Shown here: one piece after another, positions 19,056 through 30,177 of the stretch
Layout of the letters: every line of letters starts with the position of its first letter
How positions within the stretch are numbered: position 1 is the first letter of the stretch
Origin: Thermoproteota archaeon
GTDB taxonomy: Archaea > Thermoproteota > Methanomethylicia > Methanomethylicales > Methanomethylicaceae
Direction of reading: 5' to 3'
DNA length: 53,168 nt
Assembly: GCA_016882195.1 (NCBI GenBank)
Contig: VGLU01000004.1
Coordinates: 69,572 to 122,739 of the forward strand
Made by a program: the position numbers and the translations under genes
Notes under the pieces: generated by a model
Database searches by the model: none
Told to the model about the DNA's origin: nothing
The model's input: only the letters and a program-made list of their open reading frames with translations

Positions 19056-19876
19056 ATGGAAGATGAAAAAGTGAGAAAGGTCGTTCGAAGAAGATACGGT
19101 AAAATGGCAAAGGAAGAGCGTTCTTGCTGCGGGGATTCAACTCCTTGTGGGGCGGAAAAGCTCCAGAGACTTTTAGCAGGAAGATTGGCTATACTGAAGA
19201 GGATATCAGTTCAGTACCGAAAGGGGCAAATCTTGGTCTCGGGTGCGGCAATCCGGTGGCGCTTGCCTCATTGAAGGAAGGAGAAGTGGTGCTCGATCTG
19301 GGCTCTGGCGCAGGTTTTGACTGCTTTCTGGCCTCGAAGAGGGTTGGAGAAAGTGGGAGGGTAATAGGCGTTGATATGACGCCAGAGATGCTCGACAAAG
19401 CTCGGGCTAATGCAAAAAAGTGAGGCTTCAAAAACGTAGAGTTCAGGTTGGGAGAAATCGAGAACGTGCCCGCACCAGATAACGCTGTGGATGTAATAAT
19501 CTCAAATTGCGTGATCAATCTGTCCCCAGACAAGAGACGGGTTTTTTATGAGGCATACAGGGTGCTCCGGCCTGGCGGCAGGTTGATAGTTTCTGATGTT
19601 GTGTTGCTAAAGAAGATCGCCGATTTTCTCAAAAAACCAGTCGCGGCGTATGTTGGATGCGTGTCTGGAGCGATGATGAAGGACGAGTATATCGGGGCGA
19701 TCAGAGAGGCAGGGTTCAGGAACATATCAATAATGGGCGAGTCGAATTTCGATGCAGATTCCATAGTAAAAAATCCTGAAGTGAAGGCAACGCTGAAGAA
19801 AGAGAAGATACCCCTGGCGAAAGCGAAGGAGTTTGCAGGCTCCGTAATCAGCATTAAACTCTGCGGTTTCAAATAG
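19056..19876 (+). pseudogene. arsM: arsenite S-adenosylmethionine methyltransferase, damaged
   Basis: ArsM methylates arsenite. The N-terminus ([15 protein letters not shown] ... SCCGDST), SAM motif [33 protein letters not shown], the ISNCVINLSPDK segment and AAYVGCVSGAM are typical and hold the As-binding cysteines. Two lesions exist: a frame change in the AAAA run at about 19155-19158 (one A missing restores frame) and an in-frame TGA at 19421-19423 where homologs usually have Gly. With both it cannot make a full protein. TGA is used as a normal stop elsewhere in the window, so recoding is unlikely. Confidence 0.85.
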
Positions 19877-19906
19877 GTACGCCACGTTGTGAGGATAGTT
19901 AAGTGA

Positions 19907-20191
19907 GTGACCTCCTCCCACAGCCTGAAGGCTGGGGCTTCCACTTTTTCTGTCGGTTGTCTCCTCACAGCCTCTGCTCGGAGGGCGTTTTGCGGAATTT
20001 TCGGTTCCTGCTTCACCGACCAGACTCGATCCCTGCCCAAAAGGGCAGGTTACGGAGGTCTTGATCTCCGCGGGCGTATATTCGGGGTAGCCCCTCCCTA
20101 CTTGATCAACTGTTGGATGTGGAATGGATAAAAAAGTTTCGGCTTTCATCCCCAGCCTAAAGTTTGGGGACTTCCCGCCGACAGAGTTAAA
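19907..20191. mobile_element. IS200/IS605-type non-autonomous element (PATE-like), 285 bp
   Basis: The left end reads GTGACCTCCTCCC followed by a hairpin CAGCC-TGAA-GGCTG. The right end has CCCCA ... TGGGG followed by GGGGACTTCCCGCCGA and GAGTTAAA. Both termini recur in a 53-bp copy at 27510-27562. End hairpins without long terminal inverted repeats and without coding capacity fit non-autonomous relatives of IS200/IS605 elements, moved in trans by a Y1 transposase. No such transposase is in this window. Exact ends are inferred from the two-copy comparison. Confidence 0.6.
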
Positions 20192-20848: not shown

Positions 20849-20923
20849 TGGTGGACCGGGTGGGATTTGAACCCACGACCCCCTGCGTGCAAGGCAGGTG
20901 ATCTGCCGCTAATCTACCGGCCC
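20849..20923 (-). tRNA. tRNA-Ala (TGC), intact, CCA encoded
   Basis: Acceptor GGGCCGG pairs with CCGGTCC, including the G3-U70 wobble that marks alanine tRNAs. Anticodon stem CCTGC/GCAGG encloses CTTGCAC, anticodon TGC. The T-arm GTGGG-TTCAAAT-CCCAC is perfect. A73 is at 20852 and CCA at 20849-20851. An almost identical second copy lies at 25220-25291. Confidence 0.95.
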
Positions 20924-20938
20924 TCTGCGGTATAGGAG
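20854..20938. repeat. 85-bp exact direct repeat, copy 1 (contains tRNA-Ala)
   Basis: The 85 bases from 20854 recur without a difference at 25222-25306. They cover all of tRNA-Ala except its last acceptor base, plus 15 bases of 5' flank (CTCTGCGGTATAGGAG on the plus strand). Sequence on either side differs at once. The 4.3 kb between the copies could be an inserted or duplicated island. Confidence 0.9.
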
Positions 20939-21069
20939 GGGAGGGGATTTTTATGCATTTCGCGATTTATCCATAACATTCTGACCAAGAAACGTGTGGA
21001 AAGAAATAAAATCAAAGGAGGATGGGGGCGCCACCTCGTTGTGCAGCCGATCCCTTTCTTTGTCTGAGC

Positions 21070-21738
21070 TTAAGCTAGCTTGTTCCCACACTCGCCACAG
21101 AATCTTGTTCCTGCCGCATTCTGCGCGCCGCACCTCGGGCACTTCGCTAAAGCGAGGGGTGCGCCGCAGTTGTTGCAGAACTTGCCTTCCCCCGCAGGCT
21201 TGCCGCACCTGGGACAGATGGTCTGCTTGCCCTCGATCTTGCCGGTAAATATCTCGGTCGCTCTAGCCTTTTCCCATACCTGCTCACTTGCAACCTGCGA
21301 CTTTGCGGCGGCTATCTCAACGCTTAGGCGCGGGGCGTCCTCGATACAAAGACCCTCCTGCTCATTCCAATCGTTTTCGCAGACGTATCTATGGCATTTC
21401 GGGCAGCGTTTGAAGTGACCCATAGCCTCGTTCTGGGCCAGTTCAAAGGCCTGTTCGTGCTCCTTGTGCCACTCAGGTGACATACCTTGAAACCGTTCAG
21501 AGAGAACGCCCCCCGCCCTCTCGCCGGCGTAACCTGCACCGCCGAACCTCCCAGTAAGGGACGTGCCAATGCTCGCGGCTGCGCCTAGACCCCGTAGCAG
21601 CCCTGCTTTCTTGTAGGTCTTGGAGGGGATGAACTGGGTTTTGTATCCGTCTGAGCAGATATCGCAGTGAAAGGTAAACTGGAAACCGGCCTCCGTGCTG
21701 TTGTCATCGAAATTGCGCGTAAAAGGTTGAAGAGGCAG
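21070..21738 (-). CDS. multi-zinc-ribbon protein, no ordinary start codon
   Basis: The C-terminal 60 residues hold two double-CxxC ribbons (ICPRCG ... FCNNCG, KCPRCG ... FCGECG). The middle has another pair (RCPKCHRYVCENDWNEQEGLC). Upstream of the first ATG (21483) the same frame stays open and keeps protein character: FHCDICSDGY, a Lys/Gly-rich stretch and YAGERAGGVLSERFQG. These are also part of the known archaeal zinc-ribbon proteins of this type, so the gene begins earlier. The frame is closed by TAG at 21742-21744, leaving CTG 21738 as the best start, 6 bases after GGTGAGG. It follows the 21751 gene by 12 bases. Function unknown. Confidence 0.7.
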   Translation of the reverse strand: MPLQPFTRNFDDNSTEAGFQFTFHCDICSDGYKTQFIPSKTYKKAGLLRGLGAAASIGTSLTGRFGGAGYAGERAGGVLSERFQGMSPEWHKEHEQAFELAQNEAMGHFKRCPKCHRYVCENDWNEQEGLCIEDAPRLSVEIAAAKSQVASEQVWEKARATEIFTGKIEGKQTICPRCGKPAGEGKFCNNCGAPLALAKCPRCGAQNAAGTRFCGECGNKLA

Positions 21739-21750
21739 GGTCTACCTCAC

Positions 21751-22080
21751 CTATATTAATGGTTTACCACATTTTATACATTTCGCAACCAAGGGGGGCT
21801 GCTCAGTTTTGCATTTTGGGTTCGGGCAGACGACCACCAGACGGGCGCCGCACTGCTCGCAGTAGTCCCCAAAGAAGGTCGTCTTTTTGCAGCTCGGGCA
21901 GGTGAGCTCTAGGGAGAGACCGCAGTTGTTACACCTCTTCCAACCCTTCTCAATGGGGGCGCGGCATCTGGCGCACCTAAGAGGTCCCAAGGGGTTAACC
22001 CTCCCGCACAGAGGACAGACCTTGGACTCCGGCGGAATTAAGCCATCGCAGTATCGGCACGGGTGTTTGTAGCCCGGCAT
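21751..22080 (-). CDS. small protein of tandem zinc ribbons
   Basis: This 109-residue protein is almost entirely zinc knuckles: PCRYCDG, VCPLCGR, RCARCRA, RCNNCGL, TCPSCKK, YCEQCGA, VCPNPKC and KCIKCGK. That makes four double-CxxC ribbons in a row with no other domain. Such proteins bind nucleic acid or other proteins. ATG 22080 is used; a GTG at 22095 overlaps the Shine-Dalgarno AAGGTG. It is the middle gene of a minus-strand trio with the gene at 22127 and the ribbon protein at 21070. Confidence 0.75.
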   Translation of the reverse strand: MPGYKHPCRYCDGLIPPESKVCPLCGRVNPLGPLRCARCRAPIEKGWKRCNNCGLSLELTCPSCKKTTFFGDYCEQCGARLVVVCPNPKCKTEQPPLVAKCIKCGKPLI

Positions 22081-22126
22081 AGAATAAATTAACACCTTCT
22101 TCTCTTTTATGGAGCTACGGTTTTAT

Positions 22127-23523
22127 CTATTTTTTGGACGCTGCCTCCTCTTTGTCTTCGTCCGTGTCGGGGGGCTCCCCTTTCGACCACTTCGCAGAGT
22201 CATCCTCTGTGCTGACGTTGAACTTCAGCAGGTCCTTTACGTCACCTTTCCACTGTTCAGGTGTGGAGTGGATCACTCTTCCGATGAAGAGTTCGCGAAG
22301 AACTTTTAGCGAGGGGATTTTCTGCAGGGCAAAGCGGTACCTCTCATACTTGGGCTCATCGAGCCTCTCCGCTGGAAGGTATATCGGCTCCCGCCTGAAG
22401 TTTATGTCTATCATGCACCGGTTCATCCTCTTGATGAAGAGGTCCACCTCTCTGTGCAGGTCGTCAATATTCCTGAAGTCTTTGTATTCCTTCCTGCCAA
22501 CTATCCTGAAGAAATATGTGGCCTTGCCGGTGCCCTCTTGAGAGGAAGCCTCCATCACCACAGCGTTGCCCGGATCGCTAGGATTCGTGCTGTATATGGG
22601 AATTAAGAACCAGACGTACTCCCCAGTAAGATCGCCCAACAAGCTCTGCTTCACACCGATGCATATCTTCTCCTGCTGAGACATGGCCTTCAAGAAGTCA
22701 TACTCCTCCATTACCCCAACCGTGCCAAGCTTCTTCTCCAGTTCTTTCCAGAGCGTGGGTGAGACGGACTCGATATCCACCCTCCTAGCTGCTCGCCCTT
22801 CTTTCATGAATCGAGCAACCCTTCTTATGAGGGAGGGGTCGGCATTCGGAAACAGCCTCATAAGTAAAGAGTTCACTTTGAGCTGGAGTGCGGCGTTTGC
22901 CTCGGACAGCGCTCTTGCGAAGGGATCGAACTGCCCGCCCATCTGGGAGAGGGACAGCTTTTCGCCAGTCTCTGTGTTTATGGTCAGGGTGTAATTCTGG
23001 CTGTCGATCCCTGAGAGATCGCTGTATGGAAATCTTATTAATTCTCCTTTGTCCGGCATCACCACCAAGGCAGTCTCATAAAGGCGGAGCTCACACCCTC
23101 CTTTTTGCAAAGCATCCCCTGCAGAACCATAATAGACAAACTCCGCCTCTGCGACGGACTTCCTCATTTTTTCGTTCATGAGCAGGTCCTTCAGAAGGAG
23201 CTCATTCCGAAGCTTTATCATGATTCGGAGGAAGTCCTCGTATCGATAGCCAAGGTTGAAAATGGACAGTTGCTCGTTGGAAGTCAAAAGGATTTCAATT
23301 CTGTAGTCATGTTCAGAAATATCTAGGATGCTCCTGTAGGAGAAGGAAAGGACTTCGCCAAACTGTGGTGAAATCAAGAGGTGATCAACATTGAGCTGAC
23401 CACTGCCCTCCCCCTTTGCGACCTCTTCGCCTCCAACGATTCTAAGAGAATAGCTTAGTGGAAATTCGAGAGCGGGTTTTTTACCTCTTTGGTGGTCTCG
23501 GCAGGCTCACCTTCCTCTTCCAT
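22127..23523 (-). CDS. uncharacterised two-domain protein, frameshifted near N-terminus
   Basis: The main frame encodes over 416 residues. Residues about 90-160 of that frame (ELRLYETALVVMPDKGELIRFPYSDLSGI ... LTINTETGEKLSLSQ) look like a PH-like beta sandwich. The latter half is mixed and ends with a charged acidic tail (TDEDKEEAASKK). The real start is ATG 23523 after AGGAGATC: MEEEGEPAETTKEVK runs to a six-A run (plus-strand T at 23477-23482) and then must gain one A to continue as KPALEFPLSYSLRIVGGEE. So the gene is about 465 residues with one homopolymer lesion. Function unknown; its partners are the two zinc-ribbon proteins. Confidence 0.65.
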
Positions 23524-23577
23524 AGATGATCTCCTGTGACATTATATGTCGAGGCACCACTAATTTGCTTTTGTCCT

Positions 23578-23766
23578 CTAATGGAAAGGGTTCTGTAGGA
23601 GTTGGAGGATAAATTCAACAAGACTGTACTGGACTTTCTGGCCGAGTTGTAGGGTAGGAAAATTAAGCGAGTCCATTTCACATGTAGAGTCTGTAACGCG
23701 CAGAAGTTTTCCTTCAGCGCGTTGCGAAAAAGCCCTTTCAACCCAATGCCTATCCATTTTTTCCAA
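23578..23766 (-). CDS. short hypothetical frame
   Basis: A 62-residue frame beginning MEKMDRHWVERAF has a balanced composition (LLRVTDSTCEMDSLNFPTLQLGQKV) and ends LLQNPFH. A competing frame on the same strand starts MAWKKWIGIGLKGLF. It may be a small gene or the remnant of a longer one. There is no recognised motif and the Shine-Dalgarno is poor. Confidence 0.25.
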   Translation of the reverse strand: MEKMDRHWVERAFSQRAEGKLLRVTDSTCEMDSLNFPTLQLGQKVQYSLVEFILQLLQNPFH

Positions 23767-23813
23767 GCCATGACATCAACCAATGGTGTAATCGATTCCC
23801 GGAATTAAGGCTA

Positions 23814-25082
23814 TTATTCTAGGTTCTTCTCGCTGCCACAGCAATTTTCCTGCACGTGTTCACCCAGTATCTCTGACCTGTGATTCCAAGTGTCCCTACA
23901 TAGGCAGACATTAAATCCCACTCCACCGGGCGGCTCGATTCCATATTTCATGTAGATATCTGCCAGTCCCACCTTGACCTTGCGGTAATATTCCAGCCCT
24001 GGTGCTTGCATTTTGCCCATCACAGGTCTCCCAAATGGTATCCATACCGACGCTATGGCGACAATGCCCTCGGTCGCGAGGTACTCGGCACCTTTGAGGA
24101 AGCTCTCCGCGGGTTCAACGCCGACTACGAATGAGCTGCATGCCTTATTGGGGCCATATTCCTTTGATATGTACTTCAGGCAATCCAGATGCCTCTTCCG
24201 CCCCGTGAACTTCGATTTTCCAGGGGTTATGGCCTTTGCCAACTCCTCGTCCCAGACCTCGAGACTGCAGGCTATCCTGTCGGCTCCTGCCTCAAATACT
24301 TGGTCGACCACCTTAGGATCGGTTGGAGGAGTCGTATACACCAAAACCTCGCCACGGATGTTCTTGAGCCCTGCAACAGAATCTATCTCATCGAGGTAGC
24401 TCTTTATGATGCGACATTCCGCTTGCGGGTCCATAGTTGAGCCCCCAGTCAGTTGGAGATATTTTGCCGCCTTTTCCTTGTTGACGGCATAATCCGTGAT
24501 CTCAGCCACGTCCCGAGTTGTCGGAACCGGAGGGTTTGGTTTGTTTTTGCGAGCTAGTTGCTCGAAGACTCCTCCTGAGTAGCAGAATTGGCATGGATAG
24601 CCCGCACGGGCATAGTCACACGCCCACAGGCATTGGAAGGACAATACATCGACACCCTGCAATACAGCGTTGCCAGTATATGGCAGGCCGCTGGAAGTCA
24701 CCTGTTCGTAGAAATGAGACTTTGAAGGGAACTCCACCTCTGTGATCTTTTCGCCATTGTGCAAAAGGATAGGTCTTCCAGAATTTGAGACCTCAAGTTT
24801 GAATGGAGAATTCATCTGGAAAAAGTACTTCAATTGCTTCAAGCTCTCCAAAGACATTGCGGATTTCAGATACTTCAAGTGGAGTGCCACGTCGGTCATC
24901 TGAACGACGGTCTCATCTGGCAGGATAAGGCAATTACAGGTTAAAGGATCAGGGCATATCCGGTGGGTTTTTCTGAATTTCTCGTAGATTTTATTGCTGA
25001 CTTTAATCCCCTTAGTAACTACCATTGCTTTCAAATCCAAAGAGTCGACTTCTTCCCCATTTATCCGAAATCTGCTAAGCAT
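23814..25082 (-). CDS. radical SAM protein with wide cysteine spacing
   Basis: The core contains CLWACDYARAGYPCQFCYSGG. Instead of CxxxCxxC the three likely cluster ligands are spaced C-x8-C-x2-C (CDYARAGYPCQFC), or use the earlier Cys. Radical SAM strands follow: LQLTGGSTMD, EVLVYTTPP, DRIACSLEVWDEE, SSFVVGVEP. The C-terminus has a further group of cysteines (FNVCLCRDTW ... ENCCGSE). The first 130 residues form a separate N-terminal domain. ATG 25082 follows GGTGG. Substrate unknown; it lies in the island flanked by the tRNA-Ala repeat. Confidence 0.8.
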   Translation of the reverse strand: MLSRFRINGEEVDSLDLKAMVVTKGIKVSNKIYEKFRKTHRICPDPLTCNCLILPDETVVQMTDVALHLKYLKSAMSLESLKQLKYFFQMNSPFKLEVSNSGRPILLHNGEKITEVEFPSKSHFYEQVTSSGLPYTGNAVLQGVDVLSFQCLWACDYARAGYPCQFCYSGGVFEQLARKNKPNPPVPTTRDVAEITDYAVNKEKAAKYLQLTGGSTMDPQAECRIIKSYLDEIDSVAGLKNIRGEVLVYTTPPTDPKVVDQVFEAGADRIACSLEVWDEELAKAITPGKSKFTGRKRHLDCLKYISKEYGPNKACSSFVVGVEPAESFLKGAEYLATEGIVAIASVWIPFGRPVMGKMQAPGLEYYRKVKVGLADIYMKYGIEPPGGVGFNVCLCRDTWNHRSEILGEHVQENCCGSEKNLE

Positions 25083-25219
25083 ATCGCCCACCAATGAGAA
25101 CTCAAGGGAATCTGATGGTTCTTGCTCTCGGTATAAGGGAAATATAAATGCTGTTTTGATATTTTATTAATGCTACGAGCGATTGACCTTAAAATAAACG
25201 GTTTCAATTATACTTGAAG

Positions 25220-25291
25220 TTGACCGGGTGGGATTTGAACCCACGACCCCCTGCGTGCAAGGCAGGTGATCTGCCGCTAATCTACCGGCCC
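25220..25291 (-). tRNA. second tRNA-Ala (TGC) copy with altered 3' end
   Basis: Identical to the 20849 copy from position 1 through acceptor position 71, then it diverges. Position 72 is A instead of C, so the first base pair G1-C72 is lost, and the genome reads CTT rather than CCA after A73. Anticodon TGC and G3-U70 are kept. It may still be functional after CCA addition or may be a pseudogene made by the event that duplicated the 85-bp segment. Confidence 0.75.
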
Positions 25292-25306
25292 TCTGCGGTA
25301 TAGGAG
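25222..25306. repeat. 85-bp exact direct repeat, copy 2 (contains tRNA-Ala)
   Basis: Exact second copy of 20854-20938 in the same orientation. The left boundary falls inside the acceptor stem, one base short of its end; the right boundary falls 15 bases beyond the tRNA 5' end. The stretch 25083-25430 otherwise contains only AT-rich intergenic sequence. Confidence 0.9.
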
Positions 25307-25430: not shown

Positions 25431-26288
25431 ATGAAGATTTGTGACTTGGGTCCCCTAGTATCGGCCATGAATTTGAATGATCCTTTGATAACGGCACTTC
25501 ACATACTAGGCAACATCAAGGGTCACTACAGGATCGTGGTCGTAAACGGAGGGGGGAAGGTGCATGGCCTCATAATAGGCAGAAGGCTACTCGAGATACT
25601 TCTTGGGAGGAGAGGGTCTTCTATAAGAGCAAAGAAAGGTTTCGAGAGCGTGCTCCAAGAGCCAGTTAATTTATTTATGGACGAAAGCTACCAGATCTTC
25701 CCCGAAAACACTGATACTGAGACAGTAATCAAGTACATGGTAGAGAATTCCCTGGGATATGTGATCTTGGTAGATCAGGCAGGCGCTTACAAGGGTATCA
25801 TTGAGGAATCTTGCATCTTGAGTAGGTTGAGGGGGAAGAGGTTCGGGCTTCGGACAAGGAACATAATGAGCAAAAATGTCCGTACAATAGACCCGGAGGC
25901 CACTATACGCAATGCGGCGCAGACAATGATAGACAATATGGTGAGACGCCTTCCTGTGACCTTGAAAAGTACCATCGTTGGGATCGTCACGGCATCCGAC
26001 ATCATCAGACATATAATTCGACAAGAAGGTAAGACAGGCAAGCTCGGACTATTGGATGTGGCGAGGATACTAGACGAGGGAGTGGCCAATGTAATGAGCC
26101 AAAACGTCCATTCAATCCAACCAGATTCCGATGCAGGAGAGGCTTTGGACAAGATGGTTAACCTAGATGTAAGCGGTCTGCCAGTCGTATCAAAGGAAGG
26201 GCAACTGTTTGGCATAGTCTCGAGGGTAGACTTCATCAAGATTGCCAAACTGAAAGGCGTCAGCACAATAGTTGAGATGATGACATAG
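25431..26288 (+). CDS. four-CBS-domain protein, partner of TreT
   Basis: The 285 residues are two CBS pairs: about residues 5-60 and 80-130, then RNIMSKNVRTIDPEATIRNAAQTM (about 142-198) and NVMSQNVHSIQPDSDAGEALDKM (about 222-280). CBS pairs bind adenosine nucleotides and signal energy state. There is no enzymatic domain. Its TAG stop (26286-26288) directly abuts the TreT start at 26289, so the two are co-translated. A role in adenylate-responsive control of trehalose synthesis is inferred from that pairing. Confidence 0.85.
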   Translation: MKICDLGPLVSAMNLNDPLITALHILGNIKGHYRIVVVNGGGKVHGLIIGRRLLEILLGRRGSSIRAKKGFESVLQEPVNLFMDESYQIFPENTDTETVIKYMVENSLGYVILVDQAGAYKGIIEESCILSRLRGKRFGLRTRNIMSKNVRTIDPEATIRNAAQTMIDNMVRRLPVTLKSTIVGIVTASDIIRHIIRQEGKTGKLGLLDVARILDEGVANVMSQNVHSIQPDSDAGEALDKMVNLDVSGLPVVSKEGQLFGIVSRVDFIKIAKLKGVSTIVEMMT

Positions 26289-27500
26289 ATGGTGCGCATA
26301 GAAGACTACACCCCGATAGTGGGTAGCACAGAGATCGACAGCATTAGGGAATTGACCGAGCATGTCAAGGGTGCCAAAGTTGTACATATAAACGCCACTC
26401 CATTCGGCGGAGGGGTAGCCGAGATCCTCAACTGTATCGTTCCCCTTGCCAAATCAGTAGGCATCGATGCCATTTGGCAGACCATCAAGGGAGAAACTGA
26501 TTTCTTCCTGACGACCAAAAAAATCCACAACGCGTTGCAAGGAGACAACACCGTCGAATTAACTGAGGACATGATGAGGGTCTATCTGGGTACAAATCGT
26601 TCCAACGCCTCTCAACTGGATCTAGATGGCGAGGTCGTGGTAATCCACGACCCCCAGCCTCTGCCTCTAATTGAGGGAGGGAGGGAGGGAAAGTGGGTTT
26701 GGCGCTGCCACATCGACACCTCGAGCCCCAATACAAAAGTTTGGTCCTTAATAAACGGCTACATCAAGAAGTATGACGCTGTCATCTTCTCTCTCGAGAG
26801 ATACGTTCCAAGAGACCTATCGAAAATGAGGGTTTTAATAGATTACCCGACAATAGACCCGCTCTCAGCCAAGAACGCCCCTCTGAGCACAGGAGAGATA
26901 CAGAAGGTTTTGGATCGTTATGATGTGGACCCAGACAGACCAATCGTGGGACAGGTGGCTAGGTTTGACCCGTGGAAGAACCCTCTTGGGGCGATTGATG
27001 TGTACCGGAGGGTCAAAGAGAAAATACCAAACCTTCAGTTATTAATGATCGGCTCATTTGCAAATGATGATCTTGATGGGGTGGAATGGCACAAGAAGGC
27101 GGTTAAATATGCGGGGAGCGACAGAGACGTGCATATTCTCACGAATTTGGATGGCGTGTTGAATAAGGAGGTAAACGCATTCCAAAGATCTCTCAGCGTT
27201 GCGCTTCAACTCTCGATAAGGGAGGGGTTCGGCCTTACAGTAACAGAGGCTCTTTGGAAGGGCGTTCCAGTGGTTGGGACGAAGGCGGGAGGCATAACCC
27301 TGCAGGTTATTGACGGCGTAACAGGCTATCTTGTGGAAAGTCTTGAGAAAGCGGCTGAAAGTACAGAGCTTCTGATCCGGAGGCCGTGGCTTGCAAGGGA
27401 GCTTGGTCACGCAGGGATGCAACATGTTAGGCTAAATTTTTTGATAACCAAGGGGCTGAAAAATTACCTGAGGATGCATATAGAATTGGTCGGTAAGTGA
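26289..27500 (+). CDS. treT: trehalose glycosyltransferring synthase TreT (GT4)
   Basis: TreT makes trehalose in one step from an NDP-glucose and glucose, as described in Thermococcus and Thermoproteus. The N-terminus VVHINATPFGGGVAEIL and IDAIWQTIKGE, then HDPQPLPLI, VWRCHIDTSSPN and GQVARFDPWKNP, are all typical. The GT4 donor-site pair is E312 and E320 (REGFGLTVTE). Length of 403 residues is normal. The start ATG immediately follows the stop of the CBS protein gene. This supplies trehalose independently of TreY/TreZ and TreS encoded further along. Confidence 0.92.
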   Translation: MVRIEDYTPIVGSTEIDSIRELTEHVKGAKVVHINATPFGGGVAEILNCIVPLAKSVGIDAIWQTIKGETDFFLTTKKIHNALQGDNTVELTEDMMRVYLGTNRSNASQLDLDGEVVVIHDPQPLPLIEGGREGKWVWRCHIDTSSPNTKVWSLINGYIKKYDAVIFSLERYVPRDLSKMRVLIDYPTIDPLSAKNAPLSTGEIQKVLDRYDVDPDRPIVGQVARFDPWKNPLGAIDVYRRVKEKIPNLQLLMIGSFANDDLDGVEWHKKAVKYAGSDRDVHILTNLDGVLNKEVNAFQRSLSVALQLSIREGFGLTVTEALWKGVPVVGTKAGGITLQVIDGVTGYLVESLEKAAESTELLIRRPWLARELGHAGMQHVRLNFLITKGLKNYLRMHIELVGK

Positions 27501-27509
27501 GCTGTTCTT

Positions 27510-27562
27510 GTGACCTCCTCCCCACCCTTTCGGATGGGGGACTTCCCGCCGATGGAGTTAAA
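27510..27562. mobile_element. 53-bp solo end of the IS200/IS605-type element
   Basis: The sequence begins GTGACCTCCTCCC and ends GGGGACTTCCCGCCGATGG then AGTTAAA, matching both termini of the 285-bp element at 19907. The middle is one hairpin CCCCA ... TGGGG. It looks like an internally deleted copy placed just after treT. The following 170 bases to 27732 hold nothing recognisable. Confidence 0.55.
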
Positions 27563-29136: not shown

Positions 29137-30165
29137 TCACTTCCCATTGGCAATGGATATCAGATCGGTCAGCAGGGCGTAGCCAGTTGCCCGTCGACCG
29201 GCCCCCGGTCCCACTATCGTAATATTACCCAGGCAGTCCGTCGCGAATGTAAGGGCGTTGGTTACCCCCATAATATTGGCGAGAGGGTCGGATACTGGCA
29301 AGGGTATCGGAGAGACCTCTGCCAAGATGGAGTTGCCCTTCTTCTCCGCACGGGCTATCAGCTTTATCCTCCCGCCACGATCCTTTGCCTTCTTGACCTC
29401 CTTTGTGGTGACCGAGGTGATCCCCTTTCTCTTTACATTGTCTGGCCTGATGTTGATACCCAGCAATGCATTCGCAAGTATGGTGACCTTTGCGGCGGCG
29501 TCTCCGCCCTCAACGTCCATGGTTGGATCTGCCTCTGCATATCCCAAACGCTGGGCCTCCTTCAGTGCGTCCTTGTAGTCCAGCCCCTTCTCCATCTCCG
29601 TTAGGATGTAGTTGGTCGTCCCGTTGAGGATCCCCCTTATGGAAGAGACGGAGCATCCCGCAAGCACGCCGTCGAAGAGATTGAATGCAGGAGTGCCGCT
29701 CAACACCGTGCCCTTGAACTTCAGCTTGACGCCGTTGGCGTCTGCCAGTTTCATCAGCTCGCGGTAGTATAATGAAATGGGACCTTTATTTGTGGTAACG
29801 ACGTGCTTCCCTAGTGAGAGAGCAGTTTTTATGTGGCTGTAACCAGGCTCGCCGTTCACGATGTTCGTCCACGTGACCTCGACTATGGCGTTTGAGTGGC
29901 TCGCTCTGATCGTCTCAATGGCGGAGAGACCCTTCTTCTGCGCGGGTAGGGTCTCCAGGCTCGTTCTGGCTTCTGCAAGCCTCAGCGCCTCCTTTAGGTC
30001 TATTCCACGATCGTCGAGGATGGAGCCGACCTTGATGTCGGATATGGCAACCACCCGGTACTCCATGCCGTATCTCTTCTTTAGCTCCTCCTTCTTCTCC
30101 AAGAGAAGGTCTGCTAAGCCCCGGCCGACGGTGCCGAAGCCTATGAAGGCGAGGTCGAATCTCAT
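29137..30165 (-). CDS. hom: homoserine dehydrogenase
   Basis: The enzyme reduces aspartate semialdehyde to homoserine in threonine and methionine synthesis. Sequence marks are the dinucleotide loop IGFGTVGRGLADLLL, TTNKGPIS, GTVLSGTPAFNLFDGVLAG, ILNGTTNYILTEM, and the active-site Asp/Lys region GYAEADPTMDVEGGDAAAKV. Length is 342 residues with no ACT domain, as usual in archaea. ATG 30165 follows GGCGATGATT. It is convergent with the UspA gene, 8 bases apart. Confidence 0.93.
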   Translation of the reverse strand: MRFDLAFIGFGTVGRGLADLLLEKKEELKKRYGMEYRVVAISDIKVGSILDDRGIDLKEALRLAEARTSLETLPAQKKGLSAIETIRASHSNAIVEVTWTNIVNGEPGYSHIKTALSLGKHVVTTNKGPISLYYRELMKLADANGVKLKFKGTVLSGTPAFNLFDGVLAGCSVSSIRGILNGTTNYILTEMEKGLDYKDALKEAQRLGYAEADPTMDVEGGDAAAKVTILANALLGINIRPDNVKRKGITSVTTKEVKKAKDRGGRIKLIARAEKKGNSILAEVSPIPLPVSDPLANIMGVTNALTFATDCLGNITIVGPGAGRRATGYALLTDLISIANGK

Positions 30166-30177
30166 AATCATCGCCGT

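Follow-up and report, generated by a model that had tools for sequence, protein, structure and literature searches.

The second of the two tRNA-Ala(TGC) copies in this archaeal genome is, at a probability of about 75%, a recent and clipped duplicate of the native gene, copied at the DNA level while the variable interval between a homoserine dehydrogenase (HSD) gene and the tRNA was being rearranged. The locus is a small rearrangement of a known kind and not a new kind of island. The window, i.e., the whole stretch of DNA that was analyzed, is a 53 kb segment from the end of contig C4 in a 1.45 Mb genome (41 contigs, 97% complete), and the closest named relatives by HSD are Candidatus Methanomethylicota / Methanomethyliaceae MAGs. 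For the comparison, the proteins and tRNAs of the window were mapped onto the loci of relatives, which belong to other genera than the source.

The repeat and its two tRNA-Ala(TGC) copies

The repeat, the two tRNA copies, and the promoter of copy 1 are located as follows:

20849..20923, minus strand: tRNA-Ala(TGC) copy 1 (ARAGORN; Rfam), with an encoded CCA and with neighbors as at the single gene of the sister genome G003
20851..20938, strand not applicable: repeat unit at copy 1, 88 nt, of which 20854-20938 are exact
20924..20965, minus strand: leader and BRE/TATA promoter of copy 1, CGCGAAATGCATAAAAAT (promoter matrix)
25219..25291, minus strand: tRNA-Ala(TGC) copy 2 (ARAGORN; Rfam), a clipped duplicate with a G1-A72 mismatch and without CCA
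25219..25306, strand not applicable: repeat unit at copy 2, 88 nt, with a single mismatch

The direct repeat (20851-20938 and 25219-25306) extends over 88 nt at 99% identity with an exact stretch of 85 nt, and it cannot be a chance occurrence. Of the 85 identical positions, about 71 belong to the tRNA and the remaining 14 to its leader, the 5' flank inside the repeat being 14-15 nt of leader sequence. The lone mismatch falls on tRNA position 72, which is C in copy 1 and A in copy 2, giving an acceptor pair of G1-C72 versus G1-A72. From this position onward, copy 1 reads CACCA and copy 2 reads AACTT; the former terminates in a genome-encoded CCA, the latter in ...GGTCAACTT, with neither CCA nor the first acceptor pair. 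Only these last nucleotides are missing from copy 2, which retains the whole 5' end, the leader, and the alanine identity pair G3:U70. Both copies exceed the gathering score of Rfam RF00005 (29), with copy 2 reaching 58.1 bits and copy 1 67.3 bits (a difference of approximately 9), and the folding energies were -28.6 and -32.2 kcal/mol, respectively. The copies lie 4.4 kb apart on the minus strand, with copy 2, the 5'-type fragment, upstream of the full-length copy 1. Beyond the two copies, no further 3'-end piece of tRNA-Ala(TGC) was found in the window except for a 15-nt match at chance level (30051), and an island located downstream of copy 1 was rejected on this ground.

These measurements bear out the first-pass annotation, which had described an exact 85-bp direct repeat, a tRNA-Ala(TGC) in both units, and the loss of the first acceptor pair and CCA from one of them. 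It was also right that a repeat including the 5' leader and missing the 3' end is unlike a normal attachment site. The proposal of a recent event or of gene conversion agrees with the exact 85-nt core and its 14 leader positions. However, as the tRNA-Ala(TGC) sequence is 95-100% conserved across much of the archaeal family, it is mainly these 14 positions that argue for recency, and such a short stretch of sequence can only suggest it.

The promoter and the 3' end identify the native copy. A promoter matrix was built from the tRNA-Ala(TGC) promoters of 12 relatives, and random 120-nt windows served as the background (95th percentile 3.7, 99th percentile 7.7). The promoter of copy 1 reached a score of 26.5, with TAAAA located 30 nt upstream of the tRNA and within the family distance of 28-37 nt seen in the 12 relatives. 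Upstream of copy 2, the best score was 5.5 for a TATA-like CATAAAAAG at 39 nt, which is above the 95th percentile but marginal, and the matrix search found neither the BRE element nor the spacing of the family promoter there. An encoded CCA was present in 12 of 12 TGC genes among the relatives listed. Since the family promoter and the CCA end are both found on copy 1 and neither on copy 2, copy 1 is the native tRNA-Ala(TGC) gene. Copy 2 is most likely a truncated duplicate, with an 85/85 exact core, lost promoter and termini, and a lower Rfam score; its sequence points to a probable pseudogene, with weak use as a tRNA at most. Conservative integration would not produce this arrangement, because the original 5' and 3' flanks would then be split between the copies, whereas here both are on copy 1.

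The interval between HSD and tRNA-Ala

The following genes are located between the repeats and onward to HSD:

21070..21483, minus strand: zinc-ribbon protein 1 (Pfam Zn_Ribbon_1, DZR; 81% identity to the G003 protein adjoining tRNA-Ala)
21751..22095, minus strand: double zinc-ribbon protein 2 (Pfam DZR; G003 orthologue 74% identical, order kept)
22127..23377, minus strand: uncharacterized protein, possibly PH-like by model and Foldseek (G003 orthologue 61% identical, next to HSD)
23814..25094, minus strand: variant radical SAM protein (Pfam PF04055; NCBIfam NF045502)
25431..26288, plus strand: CBS-domain protein (Pfam CBS; forms a pair with TreT close to HSD in both G014 and G004)
26289..27500, plus strand: TreT-type trehalose synthase (Pfam TreT_GT1; 74% identity in G014, near HSD)
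29137..30171, minus strand: HSD (tRNA-Ala(TGC) next in 13 other family genomes)

The gene at 29137-30171, which from general knowledge of its sequence we take to be a homoserine dehydrogenase, is followed by tRNA-Ala(TGC) in 13 relatives. The gap between the two measures 106-121 bp in G001, G012, G018, G007, G020, and G021, 63 bp in G010, approximately 60 bp in G005, and 918 bp in G008. A DUF169 gene lies inside the gap of G009 (956 bp), and the gap of G011 holds DUF169, HEPN, and nucleotidyltransferase genes, with a gap of similar size in G006. The gene order in these relatives shows that HSD followed by tRNA-Ala(TGC) is the family state. With 8.2 kb from HSD to copy 1, the source genome marks the upper end of a family range that starts at about 60 bp. 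Beside HSD or CBS of G014 (L076, G014:C4) and G004 (L077, G004:C14), no tRNA-Ala(TGC) was detected even with introns allowed, and both genomes were also devoid of a close match elsewhere; the gene may hold an intron, be unassembled, or be lost in these two.

The sister genome G003, which belongs to a different genus, carries HSD, the PH-like gene, the double zinc ribbon, the zinc ribbon, and tRNA-Ala in this order on one strand, and its tRNA-Ala(TGC) is a single copy. Because G003 shows the same order and strand at a single tRNA, three of the four enclosed genes were already beside copy 1. The PH-like gene and both zinc-ribbon genes would have adjoined the native tRNA in an ancestor shared with G003, or else they were gained at the same place twice. 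The profile searches recovered the inventory given in the first-pass annotation (two zinc-ribbon genes, an uncharacterized protein, and an odd radical SAM gene), but its interpretation of the 4.3 kb as one accessory island inserted at the tRNA does not hold, since only the radical SAM gene is new at this place. A relative with a single tRNA-Ala and no island had been named as the comparison that would define an insertion; G003 does have the single tRNA, but three of the presumed island genes already stand next to it. The interval is neither absent from relatives nor did it arrive as a unit, with three genes adjoining the G003 tRNA and the radical SAM gene located elsewhere in that genome.

The radical SAM protein matched NF045502 at 202 bits (cut-off 125). 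Its G003 orthologue (75% identity) lies next to a ChrB-like gene on another contig, among neighbors that differ from those in the window, and one genome from outside the class also encodes the protein. At the DNA level, similarity to the G003 copy extends from 23871 to 25171 and ends short of copy 2. At about 23740, the sequence was suspected to hold the truncated start of the gene located after radical SAM in G003; this match comprised 11 residues at an E-value of 1.6 and is not claimed. In G003, a 160-aa ORF is found near tRNA-Ala (L046:12709-13191) and again, at 95% identity, near the radical SAM gene of the other contig (L082:8145-8621).

The PH-like protein gave no Pfam, NCBIfam, or PHROGs match and is present in four family genomes and, distantly, in 1 other of 300 in the phylum. 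Its AlphaFold2 model, built from four sequences, had a mean pLDDT of 61.6 with a better N-terminal half, and the best single-domain Foldseek matches of this half were PH domains (probability 1.00, E ~1e-3), which hints weakly at a PH fold. Between 23377 and 23560, the frame of this gene changes in a run of A near 23480, and the G003 orthologue is about 60 aa longer upstream. Likewise, the frame of zinc-ribbon protein 1 probably extends upstream from 21483 to approximately 21740-21745, the G003 homologue having 223 aa. By eye, this extension contains no ATG, GTG, or TTG start; a CTG may serve, or the start may be lost.

The rearranged part extends well beyond the second repeat, up to HSD at 29137, and now also holds a USP/Lrp pair, while copy 2 sits at the seam between the CBS and radical SAM genes. 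In other genomes, CBS and TreT are found near HSD (G014, G004) or beside other trehalose-cluster genes (G002, G013), and in other genera they are located away from this region. As the pieces of the interval (zinc ribbons and PH-like gene, radical SAM gene, CBS-TreT) have different histories, the stretch from HSD to copy 1 is a mosaic. A large trehalose-/glycogen-type cluster (31945-53108), whose order is kept in several genera, adjoins the HSD-tRNA interval.

Further repeats and a gene split into two frames were observed in the same region. A 290-bp MITE-like repeat (19905-20191), with hairpin ends resembling those of IS200/IS605, is represented elsewhere in the genome by no fewer than two further relatives of nearly full length (87% on C23, 73% on C3) and by partial copies at the ends of contigs C26, C30, and C36. 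A 52-bp MITE-like remnant follows just after TreT (27511-27562). A composite transposon made from these two repeats is only an idea, because the second is just that 52-bp remnant. An arsM-like methyltransferase (19124-19876) is present in two frames of 99 and 142 aa, both parts of Methyltransf_31, and represents either a broken gene or a sequence error.

With regards to the order of events, copy 1 would be the ancestral tRNA-Ala(TGC), still at its original position and equipped with its own promoter and CCA, and the PH-like and zinc-ribbon genes would have stood beside it before the duplication. During the rearrangement that brought CBS-TreT, USP/Lrp, and the radical SAM gene between HSD and the tRNA, approximately 85-88 nt of copy 1, from the 14-nt leader through tRNA position 71, would have been duplicated at the DNA level to yield copy 2, leaving out the promoter, the last acceptor pair, and the CCA. 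We infer an illegitimate or templated insertion as the route rather than an integrase.

Alternative explanations and known systems

No PF00589 integrase was found on contig C4, in line with the earlier remark that none is present; the two matches of the genome are located on C9 and C7. Profile searches identified no recombinase among the four enclosed proteins. A viral origin was rejected, as the PH-like and radical SAM proteins had no relatives in IMG/VR viral contigs and no PHROGs match, and the PH-like protein had no match in phage records. A full tRNA gene and a fragment in the same orientation, with accessory genes between them over more than 2 kb, are shared with the islands described by Islander, and the side of the fragment relative to the full gene agrees as well. 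However, the Islander definition of tRNA-integrated islands requires an integrase (PMC4383910), while the present locus shows none inside or overlapping the interval (PF00589 on C4; profiles on the four enclosed proteins) and has the promoter on the wrong copy. With the promoter position, the neighbors, and the lack of an integrase on C4, an attachment pair made by an integrase was rejected.

Surveys of integration describe a preference for tRNA 3' ends, and 5'-half sites belong to pTN3-like enzymes (PMC8371274). In a remnant of such a 5' integration, the 5' end of the tRNA would remain on the left fragment, a full tRNA would be rebuilt on the right by the element behind an element-borne promoter, and the integrase would have been lost afterwards. 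The geometry would fit this origin, since copy 2 is a 5'-type fragment that carries the tRNA 5' end, shares the orientation of the full gene, and lies upstream of it. Such 5' sites exist in archaea, and attachment sites can extend outside the tRNA gene (PMC8371274). Nevertheless, this origin is quite unlikely: it predicts the original promoter on the left copy and a foreign one on the right, and the reverse is seen, with the family promoter upstream of the downstream copy 1 and not of the fragment. A fragment from the leader to position 71 is nearly the whole tRNA and far exceeds a 5' half, all enclosed genes except the radical SAM gene adjoin the single G003 tRNA, and C4 carries no PF00589 integrase. 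It is very unlikely that the 85-bp block (leader and nearly the entire tRNA) serves an unrecognized recombinase as a true long attachment sequence with no integrase gene close by, and that HSD-tRNA-Ala is a cassette site refilled repeatedly by this enzyme in the family.

Given the marginal TATA-like CATAAAAAG 39 nt upstream, copy 2 could also represent a second tRNA-Ala(TGC) gene of greater age, which gene conversion has overwritten and kept identical over the 85-bp tract. The abrupt ends of the tract just outside the gene and the almost invariant tRNA cores in the family would suit this explanation, which we nonetheless consider unlikely. No second full-length TGC copy was found in the family genomes among the matches listed, the 3' end of copy 2 has decayed, and the BRE element and family spacing are missing there. 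An assembly artefact at the repeat deserves mention, as the source is a metagenome-assembled genome, but it is extremely improbable. Contigs C26 and C30 begin with an identical 127 nt of repeat and then diverge, the signature of a de Bruijn graph with k=127, and since this apparent k exceeds the 88-nt repeat, the graph would not tangle here. The copies also differ at tRNA position 72 and in all flanks, and both the linkage between copy 1 and the zinc ribbons and that between HSD and TreT-CBS recur in other genomes.

The closest precedent for the clipped duplicate comes from populations of the uncultured archaeon Caldiarchaeum subterraneum, where a full tRNA-Thr gene likewise has a partial copy, a tRNA-Thr(GGU) fragment, a few kb upstream in connection with a rearrangement (PMC3293823). 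That fragment comprises a 5' half, and a recombinase is encoded in the 1.8 kb that separates it from the full gene, a segment recurring in six regions, whereas copy 2 is nearly full length and no recombinase is encoded between the copies. Within the family, G001 carries an orphan, att-like partial copy of the orthologous tRNA-Ala(TGC) (G001:C6:517312-517361; L118:2313-2362), located 454 kb from the full gene. It matches the 3' portion of the tRNA exactly over about 50 nt, including CCA, and lacks any 5' flank, which is the usual integrase pattern and probably how integrase scars at these tRNA genes look in the family. In the same genome, an archaeal phage-type integrase frame runs across tRNA-Ala(CGC) (G001:C7; L053:1824-2975), as in suicidal SSV-type integrases.

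A tRNA and its near-perfect copy flanking odd genes can mimic an integrated island, and caution is warranted in such cases; here, the neighbors and promoters reveal a duplicated tRNA in a shuffled interval. Within the family, the HSD-tRNA-Ala(TGC) interval acts as a hot spot of gene gain, if a modest one, and could serve the study of gene turnover without an integrase.
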